From Anaerolineae bacterium (GTDB taxonomy: Bacteria > Chloroflexota > Anaerolineae > UBA4142 > SHND01): a stretch of DNA of 64,000 bases. The notes under the pieces are model-generated. The model made no database searches. It saw nothing but the letters and a program-made list of their open reading frames with translations, and had not been told where the DNA came from. This document shows positions 23,840 to 52,412 of this stretch, piece by piece (positions within the stretch are counted from its first letter, which is position 1; the number at the start of each line of letters is the position of its first letter). The stretch covers positions 1 to 64,000 of the forward strand of contig JADZCJ010000044.1 in the NCBI GenBank assembly GCA_020851635.1. Reading direction: 5' to 3'. A program made the translations under genes and the position numbers.

Positions 23840-23867
23840 TTGACAAGCAATCGTTCACAGATAGAAT
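23840..23867 (+). promoter_or_regulatory. Candidate promoter of the purine operon
   Basis: TTGACA (23840-23845) and TAGAAT (23862-23867) are separated by 16 nt, a good vegetative sigma-factor promoter pointing toward purL. Transcription from here would create a leader of about 325 nt carrying the iterons and the terminator. The gap 23700-24199 has no supported gene. Confidence -1.
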
Positions 23868-23954
23868 ACCCGCACGGCAACCAAGCCCGTGCCTCTGATC
23901 TATTTTTTTTTGCAGCAACAATGTCGTTGCGTTCCAATTCGCCATCACGGCAGG

Positions 23955-24044
23955 CGTGATCATTACAGATTGCGTGATCATCACACAATACGTGATCATC
24001 ACACAATACGTGATCATCACACAATACGTGATCATCACACAATG
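23955..24044 (+). repeat. Five tandem 18-bp iterons in the purL leader
   Basis: Five head-to-tail copies of an 18-bp unit, typically CGTGATCATCACACAATA, with a sixth partial copy after them. The first copy is diverged and three middle copies are identical. Each unit contains the near-palindrome GTGAT-C-ATCAC, so the array could be five operator sites in DNA or five small hairpins in RNA. There are no unique spacers, so it is not CRISPR. Confidence -1.
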
Positions 24045-24155
24045 CGTGATGACGAATTTTCCTTTGGACGAACATGCTGCAACAACCGTTGACTGCAATT
24101 GGACGAGTGTGCCGTCGGATTTCCGGCTCAGCGCGCGCGCGATTTCTGTATTGGT

Positions 24156-24189
24156 AGAGAGCCACGTCATGTGGCTCTCTCTTTTTTTT
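24156..24189 (+). terminator. Intrinsic terminator just upstream of purL (candidate attenuator)
   Basis: AGAGAGCCAC pairs with GTGGCTCTCT across a 5-nt loop and is followed by CTTTTTTTT. It ends 10 nt before the purL ATG, with no upstream gene on this strand that it could serve. Placement in the leader of a biosynthetic operon is typical of transcription attenuation. Confidence -1.
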
Positions 24190-24199
24190 CCTCTTGCCG

Positions 24200-27025
24200 A
24201 TGTCCGAATCGCCCATTCACTGCCTGGTGGTCTCGACCCGCGCAGAATCCAACGTGCCCGCCCTCGTCGCCGATGCGCACGCGCTCGGCGTGACCAATCT
24301 CGCACACATCGAAAAACACGACCTCTATTTCCTGCGCGGCGAACTGGAACCCGCTCAATTGAACCAATTGGCAGTTGAACTGCTCACCGACCCCGTCACC
24401 CATACATTTGTGTGGCGGAACGACGGTGACATGTCGGACGTTCAAGCTCTGGAGGTGGCGCTGCGCCCCGGTGTCACTGACCCGGTCGCCCACGAAATCG
24501 TCCGCGCGGCGCACGCGCTCGGCATCACAGCCGTCGAGGAGGCGGCGACGGGTCAACGGTATACATTTCGCGGCGCTCTCGCCAAGCCCCTTGCGACAGA
24601 CGATCTGCTCACGCTGGCGCGGCGGCTGCTGGCGAACGACGTGATTCAGCGTTATGCCATCGGCGAAATCGAGCCGACCTTTCCACAGGATGCCCATGCT
24701 CTGGGCGTCGTCGAGACGATTCCACTCACCGAATTGACCGACGGCGAATTGCTCGCCCTCTCCCGCGACCGTCGTGCGGCGTTGGATTTGAACGAAATGC
24801 GCGCAATTCAGTCCTATTACCGTTCACGCGGGCGCCAAGCTACCGACGTCGAATTTGAAATGATTGCCCAGACCTGGAGCGAACATTGCGTCCACAAGAC
24901 TTTTAAAGCCAACATCAGTCTCTCGTCTTTGGTCTCGAATCCTCCCACCGTCATCAACGGCATACTCAAGACCTACCTCCGCGCGGCAACCGACAAGATC
25001 AGCGCGCCCTGGGTGCGCTCGGCGTTCGTGGACAATGCGGGGATTCTGGATTTTGACGACGAGCATGAAATCTCGTTCAAGGTCGAAACGCACAACCATC
25101 CCTCCGCGATTGAACCCTTTGGCGGCGCAAACACGGGCGTCGGCGGAGTGATTCGGGATATTTTGGGCGTAAGCGCCAAGCCGATTGCCGCAACCGATGT
25201 GTTGTGCTTTGGTCCGCAAGAGCTGGACCCCGGGCAATTGCCCGAAAACGTGCTGCACCCGCGTCGGATTCGTTCGGGCGTCATCGCCGGTGTGCAGGAC
25301 TATGGCAACAAGATCGGCATTCCGACGGTCAGCGGCGCGATCTATTATGACGAGGGCTATACCGCGAACCCACTCGTGTTTTGCGGCTGTGTGGGAATTG
25401 CGCCCAAAGACAAACACCCGCGCGCCCCACAGCCGGGCGACCGCATTATTGTGCTCGGCGGGCGAACGGGGCGTGATGGCTTGCGCGGCGCGACTTTTTC
25501 TTCCATGACCATGGACGCGCAGACAGCTCAGATAGCGGGCGCATCGGTGCAGATCGGCGACCCGATTACGGAAAAAGGGCTGATCGAGGTCATTACGCGC
25601 GCGCGGGATGCGGAGCTTTATACCGCGATCACCGATTGCGGCGCGGGTGGTCTTTCATCGGCAGTGGGCGAAATGGCAAGCGACACGGGCGCGGAGGTGG
25701 CGCTGGACGACGTGCGACTCAAATATCCCGGTCTCGCGCCGTGGGAGATCTGGCTTTCGGAAGCGCAAGAGCGCATGGTGCTGGCAGTGCCTCCCCAATC
25801 GGTGAACGCCCTCAACGCGTTGTGTGATACATATTCTGTTGAGCTGACCGATATTGGCGCGTTCAACGACAGCGGGCACACCCGTGTCCATTACGGCAGT
25901 CGTCAGGTCCTGGATTTGGAAAATCATTTTCTCCATCATGGGATTCCCCAACGTCACCTCACGGCGACACCCCCCCCTCCCTCGAACGCGCGGCAGGCAG
26001 CCCCCGCCAATTTTGAGCAGCGCCTGCTCGACCTCTTGTCGCATCCCAACATTGCTTCCAAATCGGATGTGATTCGCCTTTACGATCACGAAGTGCAGGG
26101 GGGCACGGTGGTAAAACCGCTGACCGGCGCACAAAACGACGGTCCCTCCGATGCGGTGGCGTTAAAACCCATCGGCACGCAGGGGGCGCGCGGCATTGTG
26201 CTGTCGTGCGGGCTAAATCCCGAATACGGCAAACACGATGCCTACGGGATGGCGTTGAGCGTGATTGACGAGGCGGTCCGCAACGCGGTCGCCGTGGGGG
26301 CAGACCCGTCGCGCATCGCGCTGCTGGACAATTTTTGTTGGGGCGACCCGAAACGTCCCGAGACGCTCGGCGCTTTGGTCGAGGCGGCGCGCGGGTGTCA
26401 TGACGGCGCGTTGTTGTTTGGCGCCCCATTCGTTTCGGGCAAAGACTCGCTAAACAACGAATATCTCGGCGCGGACGGAGCGCGCCATGCCATCCCGCCG
26501 ACGCTGTTGATTTCCGCCATCGGTTACCTGGACAATGTCGGCGATGCGGTGACGATGGACCTGAAACGGGCGGGCAATCTCGTCTATCGAGTGGGAATCT
26601 TGTCGGAATCAGACGCCATCGTGCCGCCGCTCGCGCCGGAAACGCCGCGCGTGTATCGGGCGCTCCATCAAGCGATGCGCGCGGGGCTTGTGCGCGCGTG
26701 CCACGATTCGAGCGAGGGCGGGCTTGCGGTCAGCGCGGCGGAAATGTGCATCGGCGGACGACTGGGCATGTCCATCGAGCTCGAATCGCCCGCCGCCCTG
26801 TTTCGCGAGACCAACGGCACGCTGCTCGTCGAAATCGAACCGCAAAACGCGGCCGCCTTTGAGGAACATTTTCGAACGCTTCTGCAAGCGCTCGCCAATC
26901 TCGGGAGCGTGACCGACCATCCCAAACTGGAAATACGCGCGAACGGCAAAACACTCGTCTCGCACACGCTCGATTCACTCGTCAGCGCATGGAACCGCGG
27001 ACCGGGACGGTATCCCGAAACGTAG
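24200..27025 (+). CDS. purL: Phosphoribosylformylglycinamidine synthase, PurL with fused N-terminal PurS-like domains
   Basis: About 941 residues. It makes FGAM from FGAR with ATP and glutamine-derived ammonia. The first 170 residues contain two PurS-like units (VSTRAESNVPALVADAHALGV and VALRPGVTDPVAHEIVRAAHALG). The synthase then follows, with TWSEHCVHKTFK, the ETHNHPSAIEPFGGANTGVGG motif, the ITDCGAGGLSSAVGEMA repeat and SGKDSLNNEY. Most bacteria encode PurS separately, so this is a fusion of the small subunit with a duplication. ATG at 24200 has no Shine-Dalgarno site; a TTG two codons upstream is possible. It is the first gene of the operon, behind an attenuator-like terminator. Confidence -1.
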   Translation: MSESPIHCLVVSTRAESNVPALVADAHALGVTNLAHIEKHDLYFLRGELEPAQLNQLAVELLTDPVTHTFVWRNDGDMSDVQALEVALRPGVTDPVAHEIVRAAHALGITAVEEAATGQRYTFRGALAKPLATDDLLTLARRLLANDVIQRYAIGEIEPTFPQDAHALGVVETIPLTELTDGELLALSRDRRAALDLNEMRAIQSYYRSRGRQATDVEFEMIAQTWSEHCVHKTFKANISLSSLVSNPPTVINGILKTYLRAATDKISAPWVRSAFVDNAGILDFDDEHEISFKVETHNHPSAIEPFGGANTGVGGVIRDILGVSAKPIAATDVLCFGPQELDPGQLPENVLHPRRIRSGVIAGVQDYGNKIGIPTVSGAIYYDEGYTANPLVFCGCVGIAPKDKHPRAPQPGDRIIVLGGRTGRDGLRGATFSSMTMDAQTAQIAGASVQIGDPITEKGLIEVITRARDAELYTAITDCGAGGLSSAVGEMASDTGAEVALDDVRLKYPGLAPWEIWLSEAQERMVLAVPPQSVNALNALCDTYSVELTDIGAFNDSGHTRVHYGSRQVLDLENHFLHHGIPQRHLTATPPPPSNARQAAPANFEQRLLDLLSHPNIASKSDVIRLYDHEVQGGTVVKPLTGAQNDGPSDAVALKPIGTQGARGIVLSCGLNPEYGKHDAYGMALSVIDEAVRNAVAVGADPSRIALLDNFCWGDPKRPETLGALVEAARGCHDGALLFGAPFVSGKDSLNNEYLGADGARHAIPPTLLISAIGYLDNVGDAVTMDLKRAGNLVYRVGILSESDAIVPPLAPETPRVYRALHQAMRAGLVRACHDSSEGGLAVSAAEMCIGGRLGMSIELESPAALFRETNGTLLVEIEPQNAAAFEEHFRTLLQALANLGSVTDHPKLEIRANGKTLVSHTLDSLVSAWNRGPGRYPET

Positions 27026-27052: not shown

Positions 27053-27125
27053 CGGAACATCAATCAAAAGTCAAAAACCAGAAATCAGCAATCATAAATC
27101 AGCAATTACAGACCAGTCTCCAATC
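27053..27125 (+). repeat. A-rich micro-repeat leader before purQ
   Basis: About 70 bases of imperfectly repeated words such as AATCAAAAGTCAAAAAC and AATCAGCAATCA, far more A-rich than the surroundings and without a Shine-Dalgarno sequence. Similar sequence precedes purE, purN and purH. It could be an unstructured ribosome-loading leader. Confidence -1.
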
Positions 27126-30612: not shown

Positions 30613-32031
30613 ATGAATGAACTCGACAAACCCAAAGAAGAATGTGGCGTGATCGGCGTCTTTGCTCCGAATGAAAATGTCGCCCGCATGATCTTTTTTG
30701 GACTGTATGCGTTACAGCATCGCGGGCAAGAGGCGGCGGGCATCGCCGTGTCGGACGGCAGCTCGATGCGCCTGCACAAAGACGTGGGGCTTGTCGCCCA
30801 AGTCTTTACAGCCGAAAATCTGGCGCAGCTCGAGGGGCATTATGCGGTCGGACACAATCGCTATTCCACGACGGGTTCCTCGCACCGCCGCAACGCGGGT
30901 CCGTTCATGATCGAGACGTTTCACGGACCGCTCGCCGTCGCTCACAACGGCAACCTGGTGAATGCGATGGAACTGCGTCAAAAAATCCTCCAGCGCGGCG
31001 TCGGGCTTTCGTCGTCATCCGACAGCGAAGTCATGACCATGATGCTCGGCGGCGCCGAAGGCGATACGTGGGAAGAACGCATCGCCAACGTCATGCCGCA
31101 GTGGCACGGCGCGTACTCGCTCGTCATTCTCACGCGCAATCAGGTCCTGGCTGTGCGCGATCCGTGGGGTTTTCGCCCGTTGAGCGTGGGGCGCTTGCCG
31201 GGCGGTGGGCACGCCGCCGCCTCAGAGACCGGCGCACTCCGCACGCTGGGCTGCCAGGAAATTCGCGAAGTGAAACCGGGCGAAATCGTCACCCTGAGCA
31301 ACACCGTGCTGCGAATTCGACAGGGCATGTCCGCCAAACCCTTGCTCGCGCGCTGTATTTTCGAGCACATTTATTTTTCGCGTCCCGATGCGTTCTGGGA
31401 CGGGATGCGCGTGCATCAGGTGCGCCAAAAACTCGGTCAGGAGCTGGCGCGCGAGGCGCCCATCGAAGCGGACGTCGTCGTGCCGGTGCCCGATTCGTCC
31501 CTGCCCGCCGCCATCGGCTATGCGCGCCAGTCCGGGATCCCCTATAACGAGGGATTTACCAAAAACAGATACATTGCCCGCACCTTTATTCAGCCCACCG
31601 ATTCTCTGCGAAAACAGGGAATTGCGCTCAAGTTCAACGCGCTCGAAGAGAACCTGCGCGGGCAGCGCGTGGTGATGATTGACGACAGCATCGTGCGCGG
31701 CAATACATCGGGTCCGCTCGTCAAACTCTTGCGTAACGCGGGCGCGCGTGAGGTGCATGTGCGAATCACCTGCCCGCCCATCGCGCATCCTTGCTTTATG
31801 GGCGTGGACATGGGCACGTATGAAGAAATGATCGCGCACAAACACACGCTCGAAGAGATTCGCGACTATATCGGCGCGGACTCGCTCAGCTTTTTGTCGG
31901 TCGAAGGCATGATGCGCGCGCTCGATCGCCGCGAGGGGTATTGCAACGCCTGCTTTACGGGCGTCTACCCGCTGGAAATTGACCGCGCACATGTCAAGAC
32001 GGGGTTCGAGCGGGCGTTGGACGCAAAATAG
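30613..32031 (+). CDS. purF: Amidophosphoribosyltransferase
   Basis: About 472 residues, catalysing the first committed purine step (PRPP plus glutamine to phosphoribosylamine). The N-terminus MNELDKPKEEC is a 10-residue propeptide before the nucleophile Cys (ECGVIGVF), as in B. subtilis. RYSTTGSSHRRNAGPF and AHNGNLVN belong to the glutaminase domain, and VVMIDDSIVRGNTSG is the PRPP site. Cys residues in LLARCIFEH and GYCNACFTG could bind a 4Fe-4S cluster, as in the Bacillus enzyme. The frame opens upstream, but ATG 30613 gives the canonical propeptide. Confidence -1.
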   Translation: MNELDKPKEECGVIGVFAPNENVARMIFFGLYALQHRGQEAAGIAVSDGSSMRLHKDVGLVAQVFTAENLAQLEGHYAVGHNRYSTTGSSHRRNAGPFMIETFHGPLAVAHNGNLVNAMELRQKILQRGVGLSSSSDSEVMTMMLGGAEGDTWEERIANVMPQWHGAYSLVILTRNQVLAVRDPWGFRPLSVGRLPGGGHAAASETGALRTLGCQEIREVKPGEIVTLSNTVLRIRQGMSAKPLLARCIFEHIYFSRPDAFWDGMRVHQVRQKLGQELAREAPIEADVVVPVPDSSLPAAIGYARQSGIPYNEGFTKNRYIARTFIQPTDSLRKQGIALKFNALEENLRGQRVVMIDDSIVRGNTSGPLVKLLRNAGAREVHVRITCPPIAHPCFMGVDMGTYEEMIAHKHTLEEIRDYIGADSLSFLSVEGMMRALDRREGYCNACFTGVYPLEIDRAHVKTGFERALDAK

Positions 32032-32078
32032 GGACTGGAGACTGGTGACTGGAGAACTGGAGAACTGGAGACTGGATG
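32031..32078 (+). repeat. CTGGAGA micro-repeat upstream of the four-helix-bundle gene
   Basis: Seven near-copies of the word ACTGGAG or ACTGGTG run from the purF stop to the start of the inserted gene. The reverse-complement words flank the other side of that gene, giving an inverted arrangement. Confidence -1.
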
Positions 32079-32079
32079 T

Positions 32080-32604
32080 ATGCCAACAGAACTTGAAGAA
32101 TTGAGGGTTTTGCAGAGCGCGGAGCAATTTTCGGATGAGGTGTGGCGAATTGTGGCCGCCTGGGAGCCGTTTGCGCGCGATGTAGTTGGAAAGCAAATCA
32201 CACGTGCTGCCGATTCCATCGGGGCGAATATTGCAGAGGCGTACGGTCGGTTTCATTACGGAGAGAAAATCAATCTCTTGTATTATTCGCGCGGTAGTGT
32301 TTACGAAACCAAATACTGGCTGAACCGCTGCCATGCTCGTAACCTGATGAACGATGCCATATCGCAAGAAATGATCCAGCGTCTCGTCGAGGTCACGCGC
32401 CAAATCAATTCATTCGTCGCAAATCTCAAGTCACAGCGCAGTCAACACAAGCCCAAATCCTTGCGCGAAGATAGCGCGGAATACAACACTAACAAAATTG
32501 ATGCAGTTGAAATCTTTACCGCTAGCGATTTAGCTTGGCTCTTGTCTGACGACCCTGCGCAAGAGCCGCCACTAGAATTCGAGACCGCAGTCTCCAGTCT
32601 CTAG
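32080..32604 (+). CDS. Four-helix-bundle protein (23S rRNA intervening-sequence protein family)
   Basis: A 174-residue protein. Residues 20-125 have the family pattern: VGKQITRAADSIGANIAEAYGR, then a YYSRGSVYETKYWL helix and a QRLVEVTRQINSFVANL helix. Related proteins are encoded within 23S rRNA insertions and at scattered chromosomal sites; the Avd proteins of DGRs share the fold. The C-terminal 45 residues are polar and probably disordered. The gene interrupts the purF-purD pair and is bordered by inverted CTGGAGA micro-repeats, which suggests acquisition as a small cassette. The molecular role is not established. Confidence -1.
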   Translation: MPTELEELRVLQSAEQFSDEVWRIVAAWEPFARDVVGKQITRAADSIGANIAEAYGRFHYGEKINLLYYSRGSVYETKYWLNRCHARNLMNDAISQEMIQRLVEVTRQINSFVANLKSQRSQHKPKSLREDSAEYNTNKIDAVEIFTASDLAWLLSDDPAQEPPLEFETAVSSL

Positions 32605-32618
32605 TCTCCAGTTACTAT
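32583..32618 (+). repeat. Inverted copy of the CTGGAGA micro-repeat
   Basis: CAGTCTCCAGTCTCTAGT and a further CTCCAGT are the reverse complement of the words before the four-helix-bundle gene. They overlap the last codons of that gene and end just before purD. Confidence -1.
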
Positions 32619-34949: not shown

Positions 34950-34964
34950 GCAGCGTCAATCGAA

Positions 34965-35011
34965 AATCGAAACTCGAAAATCACAAATCAGCAATCACAA
35001 ATCAACAATCC
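34965..35011 (+). repeat. A-rich micro-repeat leader before purN
   Basis: Repeated words such as AATCGAAAATCG, AAATCACAAATCAGC and AATCACAAATC fill the purM-purN gap. There is no Shine-Dalgarno site before the purN ATG. Confidence -1.
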
Positions 35012-37229: not shown

Positions 37230-37317
37230 TGGGACCGCCAATCTCCTGATTGGCACGCGCGCGCCAATCAGGAGATTGGCGCGCCCAATTCCACCAATCG
37301 GGAGATTGGTGGTCCCA
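37230..37317. repeat. Three RAYT-type palindromes between purH and guaB
   Basis: Three hairpins with 7-bp stems and 4-nt loops stand at 37237-37254, 37263-37280 and 37293-37310. The cores are GCCAATCTCCTGATTGGC, GCCAATCAGGAGATTGGC and ACCAATCGGGAGATTGGT. The outer two are in opposite orientation with flanking TGGGACC and GGTCCCA, so the whole block is also a large imperfect inverted repeat. The third copy has a paired change of both stem ends (G-C to A-T). Confidence -1.
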
Positions 37318-42986: not shown

Positions 42987-43766
42987 ATGAACAATTCTTC
43001 TGGGAACGCCCCTGGGAACGCCAATCTCCCGATTGGCGAAGGGCCGTCAACTAACAACGCCAATGTGGAAATTGGCGGTCCCAGCGGCAATGCCAATCAG
43101 GAGATTGGCGGTCCCAGGGACGGTCCCAGGGACGGTCCCGGGGAGTATTGGCACAGTCGCGGGTATTTGCCACATTTTGAAAGCCCGGACGTGATTCAGC
43201 ATGTCACGTGGCATCTGGCGGACAGTATGCCAAAATCAGCCCTGGATCGTATGACTGACGAGCTCAAACACCTGCCGCCCGACAAGCAGCGCGCCGAACG
43301 ACGCATCCGCATCGAGGCGTGGCTGGACGCCGGTCACGGCGCATGCATTCTCCGCGAACCCTCGCTCGCCCAAATGACTCAAGCTTGCCTCCTCCATTTT
43401 GACGGCGCGCGCTATCGCATGTTGGCATGGGTCGTAATGCCGAACCACGTGCACACCCTGTTCCAACCCCTCAACGGCTGGACGGTCGCCAAAATCGTCG
43501 CATCATGGAAAAAATTCACCGCCCGCCAAATCTCCTCTGGGAACGCCCCTGGGATCGCCAATCTCCCGATTGGCGCTCTTTGGCACCGCGAGTATTATGA
43601 CCGCTTTATCCGCGACGAACGACACTTTCACACCGCGCGGAATTACATTCACCAGAACCCGGTCAAGGCGGGATTGTGCGCGCGGGAAGAGGATTGGGTT
43701 TGGAGCAGCGCGTATGCGGGGGGGAAGGACGCCAATCGGGAGATTGGCGGTCCCAGGGGCAAGTGA
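42987..43766 (+). CDS. REP-associated tyrosine transposase (RAYT, Y1/HUH type)
   Basis: A 259-residue protein. Residues 1-53 are largely translated palindrome copies (NLPIG, NVEIGG, NQEIGG and a Gly-Pro-Arg-Asp repeat). The core starts at EYWHSRGYLPHF. The HUH metal motif is in VVMPNHVHTLF (about residue 155), and YIHQNPVKAGL near residue 216 carries the likely catalytic Tyr. RAYTs cut single strands at REP palindromes and are thought to spread them. A further palindrome (residues 187-200) sits between FTARQI and LWHREYYDRFIRDE, and another forms the C-terminus. The core motifs are intact, so the protein may be active. Confidence -1.
   Translation: MNNSSGNAPGNANLPIGEGPSTNNANVEIGGPSGNANQEIGGPRDGPRDGPGEYWHSRGYLPHFESPDVIQHVTWHLADSMPKSALDRMTDELKHLPPDKQRAERRIRIEAWLDAGHGACILREPSLAQMTQACLLHFDGARYRMLAWVVMPNHVHTLFQPLNGWTVAKIVASWKKFTARQISSGNAPGIANLPIGALWHREYYDRFIRDERHFHTARNYIHQNPVKAGLCAREEDWVWSSAYAGGKDANREIGGPRGK
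43020..43109. repeat. Three palindromes inside the 5' part of the RAYT gene
   Basis: Copies at 43020-43037 (GCCAATCTCCCGATTGGC), 43059-43076 (GCCAATGTGGAAATTGGC) and 43092-43109 (GCCAATCAGGAGATTGGC). The middle copy has lost one stem pair. They are followed by three tandem copies of GGTCCCAGGGAC-like sequence. All are in frame with the transposase. Confidence -1.
43557..43574. repeat. Palindrome inside the RAYT catalytic core
   Basis: GCCAATCTCCCGATTGGC preceded by CCCCTGGGATC. The 5' flank of about 17 bases nearly matches the flank of the copy at 43020, indicating a single larger unit that was copied. It is read in frame as NLPIG. Confidence -1.
43731..43748. repeat. Palindrome at the 3' end of the RAYT gene
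   Basis: GCCAATCGGGAGATTGGC in the opposite orientation, followed by GGTCCCAG. It encodes the last residues of the transposase, ending 15 nt before the stop codon. Confidence -1.
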
Positions 43767-50918: not shown

Positions 50919-52412
50919 ATGAACATTTTTGAGCGCATGACCAATCGCGTTTTCGGTTCCCGCATCCAAGCGTTGGTGAGCGCGCGGGTCAATCTCGCGG
51001 TGGCGGCGCGCGACGATCTGCGCGACCGACAGTGGGGCGCGAACCCGACACGCCAGGACCGCTATGCGTGGAAACGCGCCGACGTGCTGCGCGATGCGTT
51101 CACCGCCTGGCGCGAGAACCCGTTGGCGCGGCGCATCGTGGGCTTGACGAGTCAATACGTGGTCGGCGGCGGGCTGGCGGTCTCGTCGGACGACGCGGCG
51201 ACGAATGATTTTTTGCAGGAATGGTGGACGCACCGTCTGAACCGCATGACGATTCGCGCGTTCGAATGGTGCGACGAACTCACGCGGGCGGGCGAATTGT
51301 TTGTCGTGATTTCGACGGACGCGGGCGGGATGTCGTATGTGCGGGCGATTCCGGCGAGCGAGATCCAAGAGATCGAGACCGCGCCGAATGATATCGAGCA
51401 GGAACAAGCCTTTATTCAAAAGCCACAAGCGGGCGACCGGGACCCGACGCGCTGGCACGCGTATGACGAGCTGAGCGATGGGAGCGCCAATCTCCCGATT
51501 GGCGGAAGCGATGGGAGCGCCAATCTCCCGATTGGCGGAAGCGATGGGAGCGCCAATCTCCCGATTGGCGGACCCGGCTTGGGCGACGTGATGCTGCATT
51601 ACGCCATCAATCGGCCGGTGGGCGCGAAATTTGGCGAAAGCGACCTTGCCCCGCTCTTGAAATGGCTGGCGCGCTATGGGGCGTGGCTGGAAGACCGGGC
51701 GCGGCTCAACAAGTATCGCCAAACTTTTCTCTATTGGGTCAAAAAACCGTTCCGCGACAGCGCCGAACGTCTGGCGCGCCAGAGCGAGCTGAACGCCAAC
51801 CCGCCCAATCCCGGCACCATTTTTGTGACCAACGACGACGAGGAATGGTCGGTCATACACCCCAAACTCGACTCGTTCGAGGCGGGCGAGGACGGGCTGG
51901 CGATGAAAAAGACGATTGCGGCGGGCGCGGGCGTGCCCCTGCATTTTCTCGCCGAGCCCGAATCGTCCACGCGCACCACCGCCGAACAGGCGGGCGGTCC
52001 CACCTTTCGCCATTTCGAACAGCGCCAGATCTTTTTTCTCTGGATGCTGACCGACCTCGCGCGCATCGTCGTGCGCCGCGCCGCCGCCGCGGGACGGCAG
52101 GGAATTTCCGTTGACTCGGACCTCAAGGCGCGCGGCACGGACATTTTCTCGCGCGACAACGCAAACCTCGCGGCTTCCGCCTCCGCCATCATCGAGGGCT
52201 TTGGAATGCTGCGCGACCGCGGGCTGATTGACGACGCCGAATACGTGCGGCTCGCCTATCGCTTTGCAGGTGAGGTGGTGGACGTGGCAAAAATCCTCGC
52301 GGATGGAAAAAAAGCGGGCGCGACGACCACCGGCAAAAAAATCGGCAAGATTGGCGCGGACAGCGCGGCAACCGTGCCGACGGCGGGTGAGATCGCCAGG
52401 AGAGACGGGTGA
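50919..52412 (+). CDS. Phage portal protein
   Basis: About 497 residues. The N-terminus has RWAARAARDDLRDRQ-like helix content, then NPLARRIVGLTSQYVVGGG, a typical portal wing region. YVRAIPASEIQEIETAPND, then MLHYAINRPVGAKFGESDLAPLL and a long stem-clip helix region follow, ending in EYVRLAYRFAGEVVDV. Related to lambda/HK97-type portals. Residues 189-216 (three copies of DGSANLPIGGS) come from in-frame palindromes and are absent from what such proteins normally contain. The ATG at 50919 follows a GAGG site. It sits between terminase and capsid genes, as usual. Confidence -1.
   Translation: MNIFERMTNRVFGSRIQALVSARVNLAVAARDDLRDRQWGANPTRQDRYAWKRADVLRDAFTAWRENPLARRIVGLTSQYVVGGGLAVSSDDAATNDFLQEWWTHRLNRMTIRAFEWCDELTRAGELFVVISTDAGGMSYVRAIPASEIQEIETAPNDIEQEQAFIQKPQAGDRDPTRWHAYDELSDGSANLPIGGSDGSANLPIGGSDGSANLPIGGPGLGDVMLHYAINRPVGAKFGESDLAPLLKWLARYGAWLEDRARLNKYRQTFLYWVKKPFRDSAERLARQSELNANPPNPGTIFVTNDDEEWSVIHPKLDSFEAGEDGLAMKKTIAAGAGVPLHFLAEPESSTRTTAEQAGGPTFRHFEQRQIFFLWMLTDLARIVVRRAAAAGRQGISVDSDLKARGTDIFSRDNANLAASASAIIEGFGMLRDRGLIDDAEYVRLAYRFAGEVVDVAKILADGKKAGATTTGKKIGKIGADSAATVPTAGEIARRDG
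51486..51569. repeat. Three tandem palindromes within the portal gene
   Basis: Identical cores GCCAATCTCCCGATTGGC at 51486-51503, 51519-51536 and 51552-51569, with a 33-bp period. Each unit adds 11 residues and preserves the frame. They are in the same orientation, unlike the purH-guaB copies. Confidence -1.

Follow-up and report, generated by a model that had tools for sequence, protein, structure and literature searches.

The purL locus and its leader

The purL gene studied here heads a purine operon in the 5.8-Mb genome of an uncultured Chloroflexota, assigned to class Anaerolineae from its named relatives, within a 64,000-nucleotide stretch of DNA that was analyzed as a whole (the window). 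More purine genes follow purL, ending with a purF-like frame at 32031; all names in the operon other than purL were taken from translations alone. The features of the leader are collected in Table 1. For comparison we used six genomes of the window genus, of which five, including the window genome itself (G000), contain purL. Our literature search turned up no account of purine-synthesis control in Anaerolineae and no report of a comparable purL leader in Chloroflexota.

Table 1. Features of the purL leader, with positions in the window
Feature	Position	Strand	Details
Sigma-70-type promoter, TTGACA-16-TAGAAT	23840..23867	+	11/12 matches; hexamers and 16-nt spacer at 5/5 genus purL loci
Core 5' block, TTTGCAGCAACAATGTCGTTGCGTTCC	23909..23935	+	P1 5' arm, 23910-23917; possible side hairpin, 23916-23929; P2 5' arm, 23930-23935
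Variable apical loop, AATTCG-(array)-CGAATT in window genome	23936..24058	+	Of different sequence and length in each relative
18-bp tandem array, unit GTGATCATCACACAATAC	23955..24050	+	Period 18, 5.3 copies, 93% matches, TRF score 157; private to window genome
Core 3' block, GGACGAACATGCTGCAA	24066..24082	+	P2 3' arm, 24066-24070; joining strand, 24071-24074; P1 3' arm, 24075-24082
Hairpin P3, G+C-rich, variable sequence	24107..24136	+	Present in the predicted fold of each of the five leaders
Intrinsic terminator, AGAGAGCCAC-GTCAT-GTGGCTCTCT plus T-run	24156..24189	+	10 nt 5' of purL ATG (24200)
purL	24200..27025	+	941 aa; PurL with PurS-like N-terminal region; first gene of operon

The original prediction had placed a good promoter at the head of this leader and an intrinsic terminator just before the purL start codon. 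Both are present, and neither is missing from any of the five purL loci in the genus. TTGACA and the 16-nt spacer occur in all five promoters, with TAGAAT in four of them and TACAAT in its place in G004. The terminator stem (positions 24156 to 24180, with a T-run extending to 24189) has a folding energy of -17.9 kcal/mol, and the GAGAGCC/GGCTCTC pairing with a T-run recurs at each locus, the 5' arm reading GAGAGTC in G004. A terminator scan by itself is weak evidence, as it found one terminator where 1.1 were expected in shuffled sequences; it is the conservation at all five loci that makes this terminator convincing. It lies 4 to 13 nt from the purL start codon in three genomes and roughly 80 to 100 nt from it in G004 and G005. 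The 332-nt leader as a whole folds far more stably than its shuffles (z = -5.0). A sigma-70-like scan of the plus strand from 23868 to purL showed no further promoter-like site, so the operon should be expressed only by passage through the terminator or, failing that, from a promoter of a different kind.

A conserved hairpin core flanks a private repeat array

The 18-bp tandem repeats with GTGAT-C-ATCAC palindromes that were noted originally are confirmed (Table 1), and their units are self-complementary. They are not, however, the conserved part of the leader. The array is absent from the purL leaders of all four relatives that have the gene, and its unit was not found elsewhere in the window genome. 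The conserved element is a hairpin core of 44 bases that flanks the array, which the original prediction missed in looking to the repeats for control. Its two blocks, TTTGCAGCAACAnnGnCGTTGCGyTCC and GrACGAACATGCTGCAA, are common to G000, G003, G004, and G005 and are identical at 40 to 42 of 44 bases (91 to 95%) in every pair of these genomes. Fourfold-degenerate sites in purL show 44 to 51% identity when the window genome is compared with the other three and 68 to 79% among those three. The fifth genome, G001, has diverged and retains CATGCTGC and the basal stem of the core hairpin.

This basal stem (P1) is formed by the arms TTGCAGCA and TGCTGCAA, which pair with each other. In G001, two adjacent pairs have changed on both sides and a third has gone from C-G to U-G, leaving all eight pairs standard. 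Across the five genomes, 40 of 40 cells are paired, and the covariation score, which was reached by 13 of 500 shuffles, is lost when the partner strand is slid. We regard this covariation as modest evidence because it comes from one diverged sequence and from an alignment built of trimmed pieces, in which the window sequence was entered without its array. Taken at that value, the sequence comparison makes it more likely that the core acts as RNA than as DNA. A three-way junction, with a side hairpin (CAAC-AATGTC-GTTG) and a joining strand (AACATG), fits four genomes; it is offered as a suggestion, given that no pair varies among the four and that the side hairpin is unclear in G001.

Between the two blocks, G004 has AATTCG-ATGTCA-CGAATT and a short tail, and G003 and G005 have unrelated sequence. 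The arms are about 20 to 25 bp apart in the relatives versus 130 bp in the window genome. The loop thus varies freely in both length and sequence, so that the constraint falls on the arms, and the array lies within the apical loop. Folded alone, the array region stands well apart from its shuffles (z = -5.7) and lengthens the hairpin stem. The best reading of these comparisons is that the array is probably a slippage expansion of the hairpin loop, rather than a conserved operator or regulator-binding array, and that the self-complementarity of its units is why it is tolerated. In effect it is a natural insertion experiment, in which about 110 nt were added to the loop with the arms left intact. 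Immediately 5' of its core, G005 carries a different small tandem array (locus L043; about three copies of GCAAGCAAA units), so the neighborhood of the hairpin may be slippage prone. The 18-bp array may also be an assembly artifact. A viral origin was considered and rejected, as the array had no exact match in viral contigs.

Other repeats occur in the window. The palindrome GCCAATCnnnnGATTGGC is present in nine copies, against 0.02 expected, and is partly organized in 30- to 33-bp tandem units (37237-37280, 43020-43109, 43557-43748, and 51486-51569); it forms a dispersed repeat family. Heptamer-like tandem arrays, with units such as GACTGGA and AATCAGA, lie at 27062-27106, 32033-32076, 32588-32612, and 34958-35010. 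Similar short repeats are found within purL itself, near residue 600, in G004 (L016) and G001 (L024), where they interrupt the alignment and leave the frame open.

Proposed attenuation and its alternatives

A promoter, a leader, and an intrinsic terminator stand ahead of the first gene of the operon and are conserved in relatives, which is the arrangement by which an attenuator is recognized. With middling confidence, we propose that the purL leader works by transcription attenuation, with the core as the element recognized for readthrough and the array as an expansion of its loop. Transcription would start about 7 nt past 23867 and, where RNA polymerase receives no help at the terminator, stop there (24189), yielding a leader RNA of roughly 315 nt. 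The conserved core (23909-23935 with 24066-24082) would be recognized by a protein or by RNA polymerase itself and would set readthrough to match the need for purines. A functional terminator, regulated readthrough, a sensor role for the core, and purine supply as the signal are all inferred. The original prediction of a multi-hairpin RNA controlling termination survives in its promoter-leader-terminator layout and its hairpin RNA, and falls where it made the repeats the controlling element. Absence of the repeats and terminator from relatives had been named in advance as grounds for refutation; the promoter and terminator withstand this check, as relatives retain both, and the repeats do not.

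Several points weigh against the attenuation reading: its covariation derives from a single diverged sequence, its core is single copy and limited to one genus, and its switching step has no visible basis. The predicted antiterminator partners of the terminator 5' arm differ by species, and the best duplexes between leader and terminator arm are no better than those in shuffled leaders. With neither a conserved partner nor an excess over shuffles, a classical pairing switch is not visible, and we do not claim that subtype of attenuator. A leader peptide was also considered, as visual inspection of G003, G004, and G005 shows short frames starting with MPCR and ending at or near the terminator. 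It was not supported, as neither the frame nor its length is kept in the window genome and P3 explains the conserved stretch equally well.

The lack of a visible switching structure would sit comfortably with an independent small-RNA gene having its own promoter and terminator, with purL reached by leaky readthrough or from an unrecognized promoter. Promoter, structured RNA, and terminator do make up a complete unit, and the wider gap between terminator and purL in G004 and G005 also speaks for this reading. We nevertheless consider it unlikely: the core occurs only before purL, the terminator all but abuts the start codon in the other three genomes, no second sigma-70-like promoter was seen, and the 6S RNA of these genomes is encoded elsewhere.

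A riboswitch or classical attenuator, with the core as the binding site for a protein or a purine-related metabolite and with the terminator disrupted through alternative pairing, would account for the aptamer-like combination of a strongly conserved core sequence with a variable peripheral loop, and also for the purine operon downstream. It is improbable in view of the species-specific, shuffle-like partners of the terminator arm, the lack of an Rfam match, and the single copy of the core per genome.

The high sequence conservation of the core blocks, and the inverted repeat that they form in DNA, could also mark an operator for a regulator acting downstream of the promoter. CGAAC and GTTC in the blocks bear what we take to be a faint resemblance to PurBox halves. 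A DNA operator would have to accommodate the wide range of arm spacings, from about 20 to 130 bp, and the compensatory changes in the stem, and no Bacillus-type PurR scored over its cutoff in the genus; we judge this reading very improbable. Least credible of all is the idea, originally put forward as one of two options, that the array consists of iterons for a repeat-binding regulator. Its regular 18-bp spacing and near-palindromic units speak in favor of this; against it, the array is found neither at this locus in the four relatives nor elsewhere in the genome and lies in a freely varying loop, and G005 has a small array of another sequence next to its core.

Comparison with known systems

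The original prediction recognized no known purine riboswitch core, and our searches agree: no Rfam 15 covariance model gave a relevant match to the window leader or to those of its relatives, whether at gathering cutoffs or at permissive E values. With E values up to 5, the window leader matched only animal microRNA models, far below their cutoffs. The purine-related riboswitches (G-box purine, RF00167; ZTP/pfl, RF01750; and PRPP/ykkC) likewise combine a leader RNA and a terminator before purine genes; the purL leader differs in having neither an Rfam match nor a detectable terminator-antiterminator exchange. Being single copy and limited to one genus, the core also differs from most known metabolite-sensing leaders.

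The purL leader also resembles processive-antitermination leaders such as the LoaP-dependent dfn leader of Bacillus velezensis, in which a hairpin is required for readthrough of a terminator that it does not overlap (PMC12691694). There, as at purL, a small conserved hairpin lies in a long leader with a distant intrinsic terminator; antiterminator pairing is not needed in such systems and is not visible at purL, where the terminator lies some 70 to 110 nt beyond the conserved hairpin. The purL hairpin is different, with no UNCG tetraloop seen, it precedes a housekeeping purine operon, and its partner is hypothetical. It is a rather doubtful proposition that the core represents a new class of leader RNA, one that would carry RNA polymerase through a remote intrinsic terminator by processive antitermination, with no antiterminator structure involved, and so control a core biosynthetic operon. 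Were the core to drive readthrough in this way, a housekeeping operon would join the antibiotic, capsule, and phage genes for which the mechanism is better known.

A second NusG-like protein is encoded in five of the six genus genomes. In the window genome this paralogue (L274/L276, contig C55) is RfaH/UpxY-like, scores below the RfaH, UpxY, and LoaP cutoffs, and adjoins polysaccharide-type genes (glycosyltransferase, acetyltransferase, and GHMP-kinase-like). Because of those scores and that polysaccharide cluster, any link between the paralogue and purL is speculative.

Two other candidates were set aside. Bacillus PurR with its PurBox also controls pur operons but acts on DNA near the promoter, and the purR_Bsub model (TIGR01743) gave only partial phosphoribosyltransferase matches below its cutoff in the genus. 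A 6S RNA at the purL leader was rejected because RF00013 matches each genome once and never here, the matches lying on different contigs or at different positions; of these six matches, two are over the cutoff and four just or clearly below it. The 6S RNA gene of the window genome is over the Rfam cutoff (L255, contig C1:21269-21451). The cyanobacterial 6Sa/Yfr7 RNA, which is related to 6S RNA and adjoins purK on its downstream side (PMC1242208), resembles the purL leader as a structured RNA beside a purine gene; unlike that case, the 6S RNA of this genus is encoded elsewhere.

purL upstream regions across the Anaerolineae

A covariance model of the core found it only before purL in the window genus, once in each of four genomes, and gave nothing credible in 20 genomes of the order or 396 of the class. 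As the model was built from those four loci, the four matches arise by construction, and the information lies in the absence of others. The best match outside the genus (G046, E = 6.7e-6) is antisense within a membrane-protein gene and was taken as a false positive. On these sequence comparisons, the leader is a lineage-limited, attenuator-like, structured candidate, and the analysis defines within it a precise 44-base candidate regulatory RNA told apart from the repeats.

Other families have arrangements of their own. Of the five purL loci in the sister family f2, four combine a promoter with another type of terminator hairpin (CACCTAT...ATAGGTG and variants), and promoter-proximal terminator hairpins particular to each family precede purL in f28, f30, and f35. 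Comparison of the core with f2 leaders, which have a CCGC-AATGAK-GCGG hairpin in G008 and G019, did not establish homology. A terminator-like hairpin detector run on 188 purL upstream regions reported hairpins in a minority, a frequency that is approximate because some hairpins visible by eye were missed and some of those reported may end the upstream gene.

Most sampled Anaerolineales have, instead of a promoter-plus-terminator leader, the site TTGACTAGACAA on the -35 element. When up to two mismatches are allowed, 57 of the 80 named relatives have this site within 150 nt upstream of purL, and shuffling the 188 purL upstream regions produced no occurrence; it is absent upstream of purL in the window genus. 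It usually overlaps the -35 element of a purL promoter near the start codon, as in most of the loci L068 to L138 (e.g., L077, L081, and L091), and is probably the operator of a putative regulator. Anaerolineae purL genes thus have at least two layouts, one with an operator-like site on the -35 element and one with a promoter-proximal terminator.

In genus g134 (G244, G285, G277, G293, G269, G195, and G207), an apparent tRNA gene is followed by a conserved hairpin (GCCC..TGTCA..GTGG..CCAC..TGACA..GGGC) and a T-run just before purL, which may end the tRNA transcript or control purL.
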